NCBI GenBank assembly: GCA_020629115.1
Contig: JAHDDY010000020.1
Span: 13,542-55,352 of the forward strand
Length of the DNA: 41,811 nucleotides
DNA from: Paracoccaceae bacterium
GTDB lineage: Bacteria > Pseudomonadota > Alphaproteobacteria > Rhodobacterales > Rhodobacteraceae
Reading direction: 5' to 3'
Both the position numbers and the translations under genes were made by a program. This document shows, piece by piece, positions 30,559-33,664 of this stretch (positions are counted from its first letter, which is position 1; the number at the start of each line of letters is the position of its first letter). Below the pieces are notes generated by a model. The model had not been told where the DNA came from. It saw nothing but the letters and a program-made list of their open reading frames with translations, and did not search any database.

Positions 30559-31473
30559 TCAAACGCCGTTCTCCTCCCGCTCCCAGGGCGGGACCGGCGA
30601 GAAGATGCCGACGAGATGGTCGATGAAGGCCCGGACCTTGGGCGCGAGGTTCCGGCGGTCGGGATAGGCGGCGTAGATGTCCGACCCGTTATCCTCGTAG
30701 TCCGGCAGCACGTGCACCAGCCGCCCCGCGCGCAGATCCTCGCGCACGAGGTACATCGAAAGCCGCGCGATGCCGATGCCCGCCAGCGCGGCGTGATAGA
30801 GCGAATCGGCGCTGTTGGCCTCGAAGTTCCCGCGCACCGGTAGGGTACTCATCCCCTCGGCGATGCCCCAGTCGTTGAACCGGGAGACGGTCGAGAGGCG
30901 CATGCAATTATGCGCGCGCAGGTCGCGCGCCGCCTTCGGCGTGCCCATCCGGTCGAGATAGGCTGGTGCGGCGCACAGGATACGCCGGTTATGCGCCAGC
31001 TTGCGCACGACGAGCTGACGGTCCTCGATCTGCTCGGTGAACTGGATGGCCACGTCGATCTCGCCCCGCGCGTAATCGAGCGTGCGGTCGGTCAGGGTCA
31101 GCGACAGCTGCACGTCCGGATGCTCGGCCATGAAGGCGGGCAGGGCGGGGATGATCTGCGCCTTGCCGAAGGCCACCGTGCCCGCGATGCGCAGCTTGCC
31201 CTTGGGATGGTCGCCGAAGGAGACGACCAGCTCCTCCGCCGCCTCGATGGCCCCCTTGATCTCGGCGCAGCGCTGGTAGAAGGCGTGCCCGTCGTCGGTC
31301 AGGCTCACCCCGTGCTTGGAACGCGCCAACAGGCGCACGCCGACCCGATCCTCCAGCTGCGCGATCTGCTTGCTGACCGCCGAGGGCGACTGCGCCAGCT
31401 CCCGCGAGGCCGCCGAGAAGCTGCCCGCCTCGACCACGCGGGCGAAGAGGACGATGAGGTTTGGCAGGTCCAT
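30559..31473 (-). CDS. LysR-family transcriptional regulator
   Basis: A 304-residue DNA-binding regulator. The N-terminal winged helix-turn-helix FARVVEAGSFSAASRELAQSPSAVSKQIAQLE is followed by the effector domain with PKGKLRIAGTVAFGKAQIIP and GIARLSMYLVREDL. The wHTH resembles LysR proteins that control glutathione, pirin or redox genes, but the effector is unknown. ATG 31473 follows AAAGGAACC. It is divergent from a DUF1127 pair, and the gap holds a 31-bp dyad that recurs upstream of the DsbA-like gene, so both may be its targets. Confidence 0.93.
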   Translation of the reverse strand: MDLPNLIVLFARVVEAGSFSAASRELAQSPSAVSKQIAQLEDRVGVRLLARSKHGVSLTDDGHAFYQRCAEIKGAIEAAEELVVSFGDHPKGKLRIAGTVAFGKAQIIPALPAFMAEHPDVQLSLTLTDRTLDYARGEIDVAIQFTEQIEDRQLVVRKLAHNRRILCAAPAYLDRMGTPKAARDLRAHNCMRLSTVSRFNDWGIAEGMSTLPVRGNFEANSADSLYHAALAGIGIARLSMYLVREDLRAGRLVHVLPDYEDNGSDIYAAYPDRRNLAPKVRAFIDHLVGIFSPVPPWEREENGV

Positions 31474-31559
31474 GAAAGGTTCCTTTACGCGGCTTTTCCC
31501 TGTGGTCAAAGACGCCTTGACCCGACGGGGGCTACGGCCGGTTGCGGTGCTTACTATAT

Positions 31560-31590
31560 CGCAATGCAACAAGAATAATAGTGCATCGCA
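31560..31590. promoter_or_regulatory. Dyad A: candidate LysR-type operator (10-11-10 bp)
   Basis: Half-sites CGCAATGCAA (31560-31569) and GTGCATCGCA (31581-31590) are imperfect inverted repeats around an 11-bp centre. They sit between lysR (start 31473) and the first DUF1127 gene (start 31626). The right half-site is identical in dyad B at 32307-32337, and the spacing is the same. A TATATC / TATAGT stretch just to the left could be part of the lysR promoter. Confidence 0.5.
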
Positions 31591-31625
31591 GCATTCGACT
31601 CAGCCATGACCACAGGAGCAGAACG

Positions 31626-31850
31626 ATGACCCTAACGCTTGCACCCTCGACCGCCGCCCAGACCGGGGCGCTCGATCCCCGCCCCGCCCTCGAGCGCCTG
31701 GGCGCCGGCTTCCGCCGCGCCGTCCGGACCATGCAGTACGCCCGGATGCGCGAGGCGCTGTCCCAGCTCTCCGACGCGCAGCTCGCCGAGATCGGCCTGA
31801 CCCGGTCCGATATCTCGAGCCGCGCCCACGCCTGCATCTACGACCAGTAA
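31626..31850 (+). CDS. DUF1127 small protein
   Basis: A 74-residue protein. The C-terminal DUF1127 motif is ALSQLSDAQLAEIGLTRSDI; the N-terminal 25 residues are low in information. DUF1127 proteins in Rhodobacter and Agrobacterium are small Arg-rich proteins linked to RNA turnover and stress; the role here is inference from that. ATG 31626 has ACAGGAGC upstream. A second DUF1127 gene follows 25 bp later, so they are probably one transcript. Confidence 0.88.
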   Translation: MTLTLAPSTAAQTGALDPRPALERLGAGFRRAVRTMQYARMREALSQLSDAQLAEIGLTRSDISSRAHACIYDQ

Positions 31851-31875
31851 TCCCATCATATCGAAGGACGAAACC

Positions 31876-32100
31876 ATGACCATCCAGACCATCGCCCGGG
31901 ACAACGCCATCCTGCGTGTCGCCGGTGACATCTTCCCCTCCGCCACCGCCCGCCTGTCGCTCGCCCTGCGCCGGCGCAAGGCCTACAACCGGACGTACGC
32001 CGAGCTGAGCGCGTGCAGCGACCGCGATCTGAACGATCTCGGCATCGCCCGCACCGACATCCCGCGGCTGGCCCGCGATGCCGCCAACGACGCGGCATGA
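31876..32100 (+). CDS. DUF1127 small protein (second of pair)
   Basis: A 74-residue protein with the motif RTYAELSACSDRDLNDLGIA and RTDIPRLARDAA at the C-terminus, plus a basic segment (LSLALRRRKAYNRTY) typical of nucleic-acid-binding DUF1127 proteins. ATG 31876 has GAAGGA upstream. It shares only the DUF1127 core with the gene before it. Downstream are two related stem-loops (32134-32165 and 32207-32243), reminiscent of the Rhodobacter CcaF1 locus, where small RNAs follow a DUF1127 gene. Confidence 0.88.
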   Translation: MTIQTIARDNAILRVAGDIFPSATARLSLALRRRKAYNRTYAELSACSDRDLNDLGIARTDIPRLARDAANDAA

Positions 32101-32133
32101 CGCCGACCGCGCCGTCAGGCACGAGACCACCGG

Positions 32134-32165
32134 ATGCCCCGCTCTCGAAAGAGGCGGGGCATTTT
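32134..32165 (+). terminator. Rho-independent terminator or RNA stem-loop 1 after DUF1127 pair
   Basis: The stem ATGCCCCGC (32134-32142) pairs exactly with GCGGGGCAT (32154-32162), with an inner CTC/GAG stem, one bulged T and a GAAA loop, followed by TTTT. This is a strong intrinsic terminator 34 bp after the second DUF1127 stop. Its stem is shared with the next hairpin. Confidence 0.85.
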
Positions 32166-32206
32166 GATTCCGGAGCGAAGGAAACGGCTTCCCCATGACG
32201 CGGCAC

Positions 32207-32243
32207 AAAAAAATGCCCCGTCCTGCAAGAGGAGCGGGGCATT
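32207..32243. terminator. Stem-loop 2 with the same stem, A-run on its left
   Basis: AATGCCCCG (32212-32220) pairs with CGGGGCATT (32235-32243); an inner TCCT/AGGA stem closes a GCAAG loop. An A7 run precedes the left arm, so read on the minus strand it is a hairpin followed by T-run. Read on the plus strand it is a second terminator-like loop related to the first. Nothing but these hairpins and dyad B is seen in 32101-32444. Confidence 0.65.
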
Positions 32244-32271
32244 GAGTTTATGCTCTGCAAAGGGAGGAAAA

Positions 32272-32337
32272 TTGCATCGCTTGAGTTCAAGATATCCCTT
32301 TCATGCTGCGACGCAACAGGAACCGTGGTGCATCGCA
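32272..32337. promoter_or_regulatory. Dyad B plus extra half-site upstream of DsbA-like gene
   Basis: Half-sites TGCGACGCAA (32307-32316) and GTGCATCGCA (32328-32337) flank an 11-bp centre, the same geometry as dyad A; 20 of 25 bases match between 31566-31590 and 32313-32337. A further TTGCATCGC half-site lies at 32272-32280. The dyad ends 107 bp upstream of the DsbA-like ATG. A common regulator, most simply the LysR protein encoded at 30559-31473, is inferred. Confidence 0.5.
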
Positions 32338-32444
32338 AGATAATGATCCTTTCCGTGGAGGAAAAGATACGATCCGTCCCGCGACGACCCCGACCCGCAC
32401 GGTATGACTTGACGAAGGCGTCCCGGCGATGCTCAACCGGAGGG

Positions 32445-33107
32445 ATGACATCCGACGCCCCCCGCACCCTCGACATCCTCTCCGACCCGATCTGCCCCTG
32501 GTGCTACATCGGCAAGGCCCGCCTCGACGAAGCCCTGCGCGACGGGCCTGCCATGGCGCTCGATATCCACTGGCGCGCCTACCAGCTCAACCCCGACATG
32601 CCCGAGGGCGGCATGGGCCGCACCGCCTATCTGGAGCGCAAGTTCGGCGGGCCGGAAGGCGCGCGCAGCGTGTACGGACGCATCGAGCAGGCGGTGCGCG
32701 ACGCGGGCCTGCCCCTCGATTTCAGCAAGATCGAGCGCACGCCCAACACCCTCGACGCCCATCGCCTCATCCGCTGGGCGCGCACGACCGGCAAGCAGGA
32801 GGCGGTGGTGGACGCGCTCTTCCTCGCCTATTTCGCCGAAGGGGTCGATATCGGCGACCGCGATGCCCTGGTGGAGATCGGGGCGGCGCAGGGCATGGAC
32901 CCGGAGCTGCTGCGCCGGCTCTACGCCGAAGATGCGGATCGCGCGCTGCTGCTGAACGAGGACGCGCTCGCCCGCGAGATGGGCGTCACGGGCGTCCCCT
33001 GCTTCGTATTGGAGGAAACCTACGCCCTTGTCGGCGCGCAGGAGACCGCGACCTGGCGCATGGTCTTCGACCGCCTGTCGAGAGGCGAATCCCTGGGAGG
33101 GACATGA
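32445..33107 (+). CDS. DsbA/FrnE-family thiol oxidoreductase
   Basis: A 220-residue thioredoxin-fold oxidoreductase without signal peptide, so cytosolic. The active site is DPICPWCYIGKARLDEAL near the N-terminus, and the cis-Pro region is MGVTGVPCFVLEE. FrnE-like proteins act as disulphide isomerases or in oxidative stress and polyketide chemistry. I chose ATG 32445 (MTSDAPRTLD); GGAGGG sits very close to it. The frame is open further left over the hairpin and dyad region, which is not protein-like. The ATGA overlap links it to the next gene. Confidence 0.9.
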   Translation: MTSDAPRTLDILSDPICPWCYIGKARLDEALRDGPAMALDIHWRAYQLNPDMPEGGMGRTAYLERKFGGPEGARSVYGRIEQAVRDAGLPLDFSKIERTPNTLDAHRLIRWARTTGKQEAVVDALFLAYFAEGVDIGDRDALVEIGAAQGMDPELLRRLYAEDADRALLLNEDALAREMGVTGVPCFVLEETYALVGAQETATWRMVFDRLSRGESLGGT

Positions 33108-33664
33108 GAATGAACGCAACGCGCTTCACCCTGGCGGTTCTCGCCGCGCTGGTCGCCGCCCCCGTGCAGGCGGAGCAGGCCCCCTATGCCGGTCAGGAGG
33201 CCCGCGCCATCAAGGCCCTCGCCCCGGAGCGGATCGAGGGTCTGCGCGCCGGGGCGGGCCTGGGCTACGCCAAGGCCGCCGAGCTGAACGGCTGGCCCGG
33301 CCCGCTGCACGTGCTGGAGCTGGCCGACGCCCTGTCCCTGTCCGGCGAACAGGCCGCGCGGGTGAGCGCCATCCGCGAGCGGATGCTGGCCGAGGCCCGC
33401 CCCCTCGGTGCCGACCTGATCGAGGCCGAGGCCGCGCTCGACGCCCTCTTCGCCGGCGATGCGGCGACCCCCGGGGCCGTCGCCGCCGCCACCGCTCGCA
33501 TCGGCGCGCTGGACGCCCGGCTCCGCGCCGTCCATCTGGAGGCGCATATCGAGACCTACCCCCTCCTCACCCGCCACCAGCGGATGATCTACGCGAAGGC
33601 GCGGGGATACGGGGGCGGCCACGGTCACGGCGGGCATGGCCACGGGGGGCACGGCAATCACTGA
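33104..33664 (+). CDS. Periplasmic CpxP/Spy-like protein with His-rich tail
   Basis: A 186-residue exported protein: signal peptide to about residue 24 (LAALVAAPVQAE), then an all-helical domain with LADALSLSGEQAARVSAIRERMLAEA and YPLLTRHQRMIYAKARGYG, as in LTXXQ/CpxP-type and heavy-metal-resistance proteins. The C-terminus is GGGHGHGGHGHGGHGNH, which probably binds Ni, Zn or Cu. ATG 33104 overlaps the DsbA-like stop; ATG 33110 has better spacing to GGGAGG. It may be a metal-buffer or stress chaperone. Confidence 0.8.
   Translation: MRMNATRFTLAVLAALVAAPVQAEQAPYAGQEARAIKALAPERIEGLRAGAGLGYAKAAELNGWPGPLHVLELADALSLSGEQAARVSAIRERMLAEARPLGADLIEAEAALDALFAGDAATPGAVAAATARIGALDARLRAVHLEAHIETYPLLTRHQRMIYAKARGYGGGHGHGGHGHGGHGNH

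Follow-up and report, generated by a model that had tools for sequence, protein, structure and literature searches.

A putative minus-strand small RNA beside a DUF1127 gene pair, with PhaR-type tandem operators at both promoters

We propose that the region behind a DUF1127 gene pair of a Paracoccaceae bacterium encodes a trans-acting small RNA on the minus strand (from about position 32283 to 32207), with one hairpin (hairpin 2) as its terminator, another (hairpin 1) as the end of the DUF1127 operon, and PhaR-type tandem operators at both. For this combined reading we estimate a probability of roughly 0.7. It is built on the sequence, its conservation in two relatives, the operator match and predicted folds; transcription, PhaR as the regulator that binds, and target pairing are what we infer from these. 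PhaR is a repressor that senses polyhydroxybutyrate. Positions are those of the window, i.e. the whole stretch of DNA that was analysed (41,811 nucleotides).

In the proposed mechanism the DUF1127 operon would be terminated by hairpin 1, and hairpin 2 would terminate a small RNA that converges on this operon from the minus strand. Stem-loop 1 of the RNA would present a CCUCCC sequence that pairs with Shine-Dalgarno sequences and blocks translation, and stem-loop 2 would end its transcription. The small RNA and the DUF1127 pair would have one copy each of the same tandem operator over the promoter; PhaR would control both promoters, with the adjacent LysR-type regulator in the same circuit. The features are as follows:

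30559..31473, minus: LysR-type regulator gene (LysR_substrate and HTH_1, Pfam), divergent from the DUF1127 pair
31560..31593, plus: tandem operator 1, two PhaR-type half-sites (a YGCRNYGCR pair) at pitch 22, at the DUF1127 promoter
31626..31850, plus: DUF1127 gene 1, 74 aa (PF06568, 36.5 bits)
31876..32100, plus: DUF1127 gene 2, 74 aa (PF06568, 45.5 bits)
32134..32165, plus: hairpin 1, intrinsic-terminator-like end of the DUF1127 operon (folding, terminator scan, TTTT tail)
32206..32283, minus: predicted small RNA of about 77 nt, 5' end near 32283 (conservation, fold, weak RF00519 match)
32252..32280, minus: small-RNA stem-loop 1 with CCUCCC in the loop (32267-32262; fold prediction)
32207..32243, minus: hairpin 2, equal to small-RNA stem-loop 2 plus a U7 tail, predicted terminator (folding; kept in the relatives L042 and L043)
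32289..32316, minus: candidate promoter, TTGCGT (32316-32311), 16 nt, TATCTT (32294-32289), found by eye
32304..32337, minus: tandem operator 2, pitch 22, oriented towards the small RNA (second-best matrix score)
32445..33107, plus: DsbA-like thioredoxin-domain gene (PF01323, on the longer frame of the same ORF)

A PDB sequence search gives 3mz1 and 3hhg as the closest solved chains for the LysR protein, and among the NCBIfam matches listed (25 of 53) every score is under its cut-off. The DsbA-like gene is a flanking one: L042 and L043 have another gene in its place. Right behind it lies a gene for a heavy-metal resistance/LTXXQ-type protein (33110-33664; PF13801, PF07813).

Two hairpins behind the DUF1127 pair

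As the original prediction described, the two hairpins share a stem, ATGCCCCG...CGGGGCAT, found at 32134-32162 and 32213-32242. The pattern occurs twice against 0.01 expected (none of 100 dinucleotide shuffles held two), and RNA of both regions folds well whichever strand is read: for hairpin 1, -28.8 kcal/mol (plus, z -4.1) and -28.2 (minus, z -4.8); for hairpin 2, -28.0 (plus, z -3.7) and -29.1 (minus, z -4.7). Within the 4.3 Mb assembly the stem is present at three places only, two of them at this locus. It is thus neither a repeat spread over the genome nor a terminator in general use there, and both ideas were rejected.

The decisive detail for telling the direction of the two hairpins is the strand of their tails. 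Hairpin 1 is followed on the plus strand by TTTTGATT (TTTT). Hairpin 2 is preceded on plus by AAAAAAA, i.e. a U7 tail on minus, and followed on plus only by TTGAGTTT. The two are probably transcription stop signals that face each other, and the suggested role of hairpin 2 in ending transcription of the minus strand agrees with what was found. The A-run is also kept in L042 and L043. The terminator scan reports both hairpins on the plus strand only; it asks for an unbroken stem and a loop of 3-8, and hairpin 2 is missed on minus because the minus-strand stem has a bulge. The candidate minus-strand promoter of the small RNA was not called by a sigma-70 promoter scan.

According to the original prediction the locus might be a minimal ccaF1-CcsR locus, both hairpins being homologous CcsR-type small RNAs processed from the plus-strand DUF1127 transcript. 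The DUF1127 context and the shared stem would suit this, as would the CcsR/ar14-like hairpins that follow DUF1127 on the same strand in more distant relatives. However, the plus strand of 32101-32260 is without CCTCC (the minus strand has one, at 32263-32267), and hairpin 1 is absent from both near relatives L042 and L043 (by eye; L042 has a smaller unrelated hairpin there). Moreover, a search with the CcsR1 and ar14 models (RF02791 and RF02344, both in Rfam) gives neither of them at E <= 10 in 31500-32500 on both strands. We regard this reading as very improbable. What stands of it is a small-RNA gene beside the DUF1127 pair, which is probable, though on the opposite strand and with a predicted promoter of its own instead of in a plus-strand cluster.

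Fold, conservation and family of the minus-strand RNA

Searching named genomes with the LysR protein returned 16 loci, the nearest two of which (L042 and L043) come from uncultured Neomegalonema MAGs, with a LysR 73% identical to that of the window. As judged by eye, both keep lysR/DUF1127 followed by a hairpin with the plus-side A-run, GGGAGGAA..TGCACCGCTTG and an operator-like sequence. Thus GGGAGGAA..TGCAYCGCTTG, the minus-strand terminator and the operator are kept, and the gene beyond differs and is not DsbA-like. At the outermost pair of the stem the window has A-U where L042 and L043 have G-C, a compensatory change. MAFFT alignments of the three misplace the slightly longer loop and spacer of the window.

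The trimmed RNAs of all three are predicted to fold into two stem-loops each, and the CCUCCC is unpaired in the loop of stem-loop 1 with a probability of 1.0 at all six bases in the window and of at least 0.99 across the three. Stem-loop 1 (32252-32280) also holds a near PhaR half-site (GCGATGCA..), kept as AGCGGTGCA in L042 and L043; this could reflect a third operator or a constraint on the RNA.

In the family, GGGAGGAA N0-4 TGCAYCGCTTG is found in 2 of 394 genomes, the window's own and G314, whose copy has no operator or terminator beside it (by eye). A whole-locus DNA search in the family had matches in 34 of 149 genomes, and outside the window's own genome these were short pieces only.

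It might be argued that GGGAGGAAnTGCACCGCTTG is the ribosome-binding site and start of a small plus-strand protein, so that the look of a small RNA is incidental to the reverse complement. A TTG or ATG does stand behind GGAGG in the window, L042 and L043. Yet the frame of L043 stops after ten codons, so a plus-strand ORF does not explain the conservation; in addition the GGAGG spacing is 2 nt in L042 and L043, and the length changes downstream between these two (by eye). We find this explanation hardly credible.

The minus-strand RNA is not placed in a known family at threshold: Rfam gives none over the whole window. A permissive scan of 31500-32500 on both strands yields seven matches at E <= 10, the best by E-value being RF00519 (suhB/MmgR) on minus at 32271-32200 (23.7 bits against a gathering score of 41, E 0.022). 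The same family scores 19.0 bits in L042 and 12.8 in L043, in both cases at the right place and strand and under threshold; in L043 it is outscored by another family on the other strand. With a purpose-built MmgR model (R1, from 8 MmgR sequences) the window reaches 9.1 bits (E 1.9 in 88.6 kb), and L042 and L043 were not reported by this search. A purpose-built cuckoo-hairpin model (R2), which is unspecific in GC-rich DNA, has no match here. That the window RNA is the MmgR of this genome was rejected, a full MmgR being present at C66:83904 (66.4 bits).

As a possible target we considered the start region of phasin and compared how well the RNA loop pairs with it and with shuffled sequences. In the genome of the window the pairing is suggestive (equalled by 27 of 1000 shuffles), and none is seen in the relatives G394, G395 and G054, where 415, 187 and 372 of 1000 shuffles are as good. 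Phasin was consequently rejected as a target.

Tandem operators and candidate regulators

A tandem TGCANTGCAGCA is conserved upstream of lysR orthologues in the family. We trained a half-site matrix on eight distant loci (L064-L067 and L070-L073), excluding the window, L042 and L043. Across the 41.8 kb window its top site is 31560-31593 on plus (28.1) and its second 32304-32337 on minus (27.7), each facing its gene; the next score elsewhere is 18.1 and the best of 30 mononucleotide shuffles 22.8. The best two sites in L042 (32.2 and 29.3) and L043 (33.3 and 24.3) are these same promoters, again each facing its gene.

At up to 2 mismatches the operator pattern is found at these two places alone in the genomes of L042 and L043 (backward control 0 and 1). 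In the genome of the window a related pattern matches perfectly at these two places only, and with up to 2 mismatches 63 times over both strands (control 4). Tandem YGCRNYGCR pairs at pitch 19-22 number four in the window, which are the two places on both strands; this count was reached by none of 200 mononucleotide shuffles and, in another 100, by at least one. Ten surveyed genomes hold the operator at 15 places (control 0), and among the places examined outside the first LysR loci, L093, L099, L100 and L104 lead into DUF1127-like ORFs (by eye).

The half-site of the window equals the published core of PhaR, YGCRNYGCR. The Sinorhizobium meliloti motif is given as WNWD2NYGCRNYGCRNH2WNW, and in vitro the PhaR of this species binds the promoters of phasin genes and of mmgR, for which it is reported to be a repressor (PMC12542648, in the parts consulted); the Bradyrhizobium motif is described as NGCN3GC[GA] (PMC10888616, likewise). 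Two YGCRNYGCR boxes 34 nt apart precede the phasin gene in all four genomes examined (G000, which is that of the window, G394, G395 and G054), and G074 and G083 likewise have the operator in front of phasin genes. Over 11 phasin loci the boxes are not all strong (the best half-site in G013 scores 10.1). A scan covering seven of nine MmgR promoters finds at least one box in G000, G083, G394 and G395, and no box in G054, G074 and G364. The PhaR gene (PF07879) is present in four of five genomes searched, at 107.9 bits in G000, with none found in the MAG G395. Both sequence marks of a PhaR regulon are present here: the promoters have YGCRNYGCR palindromes, and the genome contains phaR. Because the half-sites are PhaR boxes, PhaR is the likely regulator, and judging from these sequences it most likely controls both the small RNA and the DUF1127 pair.

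In 24 of the 394 family genomes a box has CCTCCC behind it, 26 times in all (two matches overlapping; control 1), and we examined 10 of the 26 more closely. Behind six of them, which represent five promoters, the start of a phasin-like gene is recognisable by eye. Only 4 of the 26 have a T-run no more than 110 nt farther on, namely the window, G054, G330 and an MmgR gene in G206 (R1 49.5 bits). In G054, of the genus of the window, the box pair is free-standing and is accompanied by a terminator and by a hairpin whose loop contains TCCTCCC (ar14 20.0 bits). In G330 (L189, 1407-1529) we observed a tandem ar14-like array with its own PhaR-box pair (56.5 bits against a threshold of 58.8), with no DUF1127 among the ORFs listed around it (by eye).

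These data also bear on the question whether hairpin 2 is a mere bidirectional terminator that insulates the DUF1127 operon, with no small RNA and with conserved boxes that belong to the gene on the plus strand, here the DsbA-like one. It is not unusual for terminators to converge, the scan reports hairpin 2 on plus, and the second operator is nearly palindromic (17.6 on plus against 27.7 on minus) and ends 108 nt before the DsbA-like gene. Several observations speak against this. Read towards the minus strand, the operator gains 10 bits in score, and only that strand has the U7 tail. L042 and L043 retain the CCUCCC side despite a different gene on plus, and G054 has a similar layout standing free. 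We therefore judge a bare terminator to be improbable and retain the minus-strand small RNA.

Further evidence on the regulator comes from a survey of 19 loci, consisting of L042, L043 and the top 17 loci from searching the family (L058-L074; 394 genomes); left out were L044-L046 (44% identity) and the weaker matches of the named-genome and family searches. The DUF1127 profile used was seeded with six sequences from loci of this analysis. A divergent DUF1127 gene is found in 16 of the 19 loci, a box in 18, and a box pair at pitch 19 or 22 in 15. Since no more than 220 nt separate the box from the start of lysR in those 18 loci, including three without DUF1127, the LysR protein itself could be the binder, and both promoters would then be regulated by the adjacent LysR and not by PhaR. 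Two further points agree with this: the three more distant loci L044-L046 have neither DUF1127 nor box, and in Brucella both the sRNA AbcR2 and DUF1127 genes are under the control of a LysR regulator, VtlR, whose motif is reported as CAATGCAGCCATGCA (PMC12595884, in the parts consulted). On the other side, the half-site is identical to the core of the PhaR motif and is also seen before phasin genes at other sites in these genomes, S. meliloti PhaR binds the mmgR promoter in vitro and reportedly represses mmgR, and in L099 the box is accompanied by CCTCC hairpins and DUF1127-like ORFs although this LysR is absent from the stretch examined. Control by LysR in place of PhaR thus appears rather unlikely, though less so than the other alternatives. 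PhaR is our first choice on the grounds of these sequences, with LysR as the second candidate, and the adjacent LysR probably belongs to the same circuit.

The three loci without a divergent DUF1127 whose LysR orthologues keep the box beside their start are L059 (G054), L060 (G074) and L062 (G364). In the last two, an above-threshold MmgR/suhB gene lies directly 3' of the LysR orthologue on the same strand (L060, 2495-2566; L062, 2562-2637), and DUF1127 is not a neighbour of it.

Related loci and known systems

Among the surveyed loci, L064-L073 all have a same-strand CCTCC within 175 nt behind DUF1127 (10 of 10, several being closely related). L074 has one as well, and L063 and L061 only at 235 and 330. 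The same-strand units of nine of L064-L073 and of L074 have the look of CcsR/cuckoo hairpins (by eye). On the opposite strand the first CCTCC behind DUF1127 is at 165 nt in the window, 102 in L042 and 61 in L043; L042 has a plus-strand CCTCC at 330 nt. CCTCC alone is unspecific: 6 of the 10 loci L064-L073 also have it on the opposite strand, at up to 500 nt. At Rfam thresholds neither CcsR1 nor ar14 is found in 20 loci scanned; L064 reaches 27.7 bits for ar14 and 24.3 for CcsR1, both below threshold. This locus (G359, 664-867) shows a sub-threshold ar14/CcsR1-like array after a DUF1127 pair, with a convergent MmgR/SorX-like RNA opposite that is likewise below the Rfam threshold; the latter (suhB 32.0 bits, R1 25.0 bits) has the layout of the window, but without a box.

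Given that the ten distant loci have same-strand CCTCC hairpins after the LysR/operator/DUF1127 unit, the small RNA here would be an opposite-strand counterpart with its own operator. A wider interpretation, which we hold only tentatively, is a Rhodobacterales-wide module that senses PHB: PhaR boxes would drive DUF1127 together with anti-Shine-Dalgarno RNAs, usually in a same-strand cuckoo array, and the Neomegalonema lineage would have rewired it by losing the array and gaining an autonomous opposite-strand CCUCCC RNA with its own operator. If true, this would be a new sRNA family that links carbon storage to DUF1127 and riboregulation, and an opposite-strand small RNA with its own operator suggests that selection keeps co-regulation and not co-transcription. 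Of the DUF1127-linked anti-Shine-Dalgarno RNAs, CcsR depends on heat-shock sigma factors (PMC10253847, in the parts consulted). If a PhaR box is conserved at LysR/DUF1127/cuckoo loci, such RNAs would be connected with carbon storage, and their signal would become directly testable.

A supporting lead for the link between PhaR and cuckoo RNAs comes from S. meliloti, where SMc02051 and tig flank the NfeR1 locus (candidate C14; PMC2780559, as far as consulted). SMc02051 appears among the PhaR-regulated genes (PMC12542648), and its predicted PhaR box is some 500 nt away from NfeR1. Full-text searches, whose coverage excludes most subscription papers, gave no paper whose title and abstract connect PhaR with DUF1127 or with cuckoo RNAs. 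In the parts seen of PMC9230146, PhaR and DUF1127 are mentioned in separate places; in PMC10746234, AniA occurs only within a reference about mmgR.

Compared with the known systems (sources in the parts consulted), the locus resembles several without coinciding with any. With the PhaR (AniA) regulon of S. meliloti it shares the core YGCRNYGCR at targets that include phasins and mmgR; the main text of that study (PMC12542648), in contrast, has no occurrence of DUF1127 or NfeR1. In the Brucella VtlR-AbcR2-DUF1127 regulon, too, DUF1127 genes are controlled jointly with an sRNA and a LysR regulator takes part (PMC12595884), whereas in the window the half-site is that of PhaR and the sRNA, the DUF1127 pair and LysR adjoin. 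CcsR/cuckoo/alpha-r14 RNAs of the CIN1 locus (CcaF1, Rhodobacter sphaeroides) have the DUF1127 partner (PF06568 twice in the window) and CCUCC in a hairpin loop in common with the window RNA. There, CcaF1-CcsR is one transcript from an RpoHI/RpoHII promoter (PMC10253847), while here a single CCUCCC unit lies on the opposite strand with a predicted promoter and operator of its own; the conserved CCTCC is opposite to DUF1127 in the window, L042 and L043, and CCUCCUCCC-type motifs in hairpin loops that match RF02791 or RF02344 were not found. MmgR of S. meliloti (alpha-r8, RF00519 suhB), a 77-nt Hfq-dependent RNA that directly or indirectly lowers phasin output (PMC8401924), is similarly a short RNA with CCUCCC, a terminator and a PhaR box in its promoter, and the window has a CCUCCC core, an intrinsic terminator and a PhaR box over the promoter (all predicted). 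The Rfam consensus of MmgR differs in having a hairpin before CCUCCC, which in the window sits in the loop of the first hairpin. By the sequence-based tests made, the window RNA is thus not a CcsR/ar14 member and is under the MmgR threshold, and it most likely works like both, as an anti-Shine-Dalgarno RNA under PhaR-type control.
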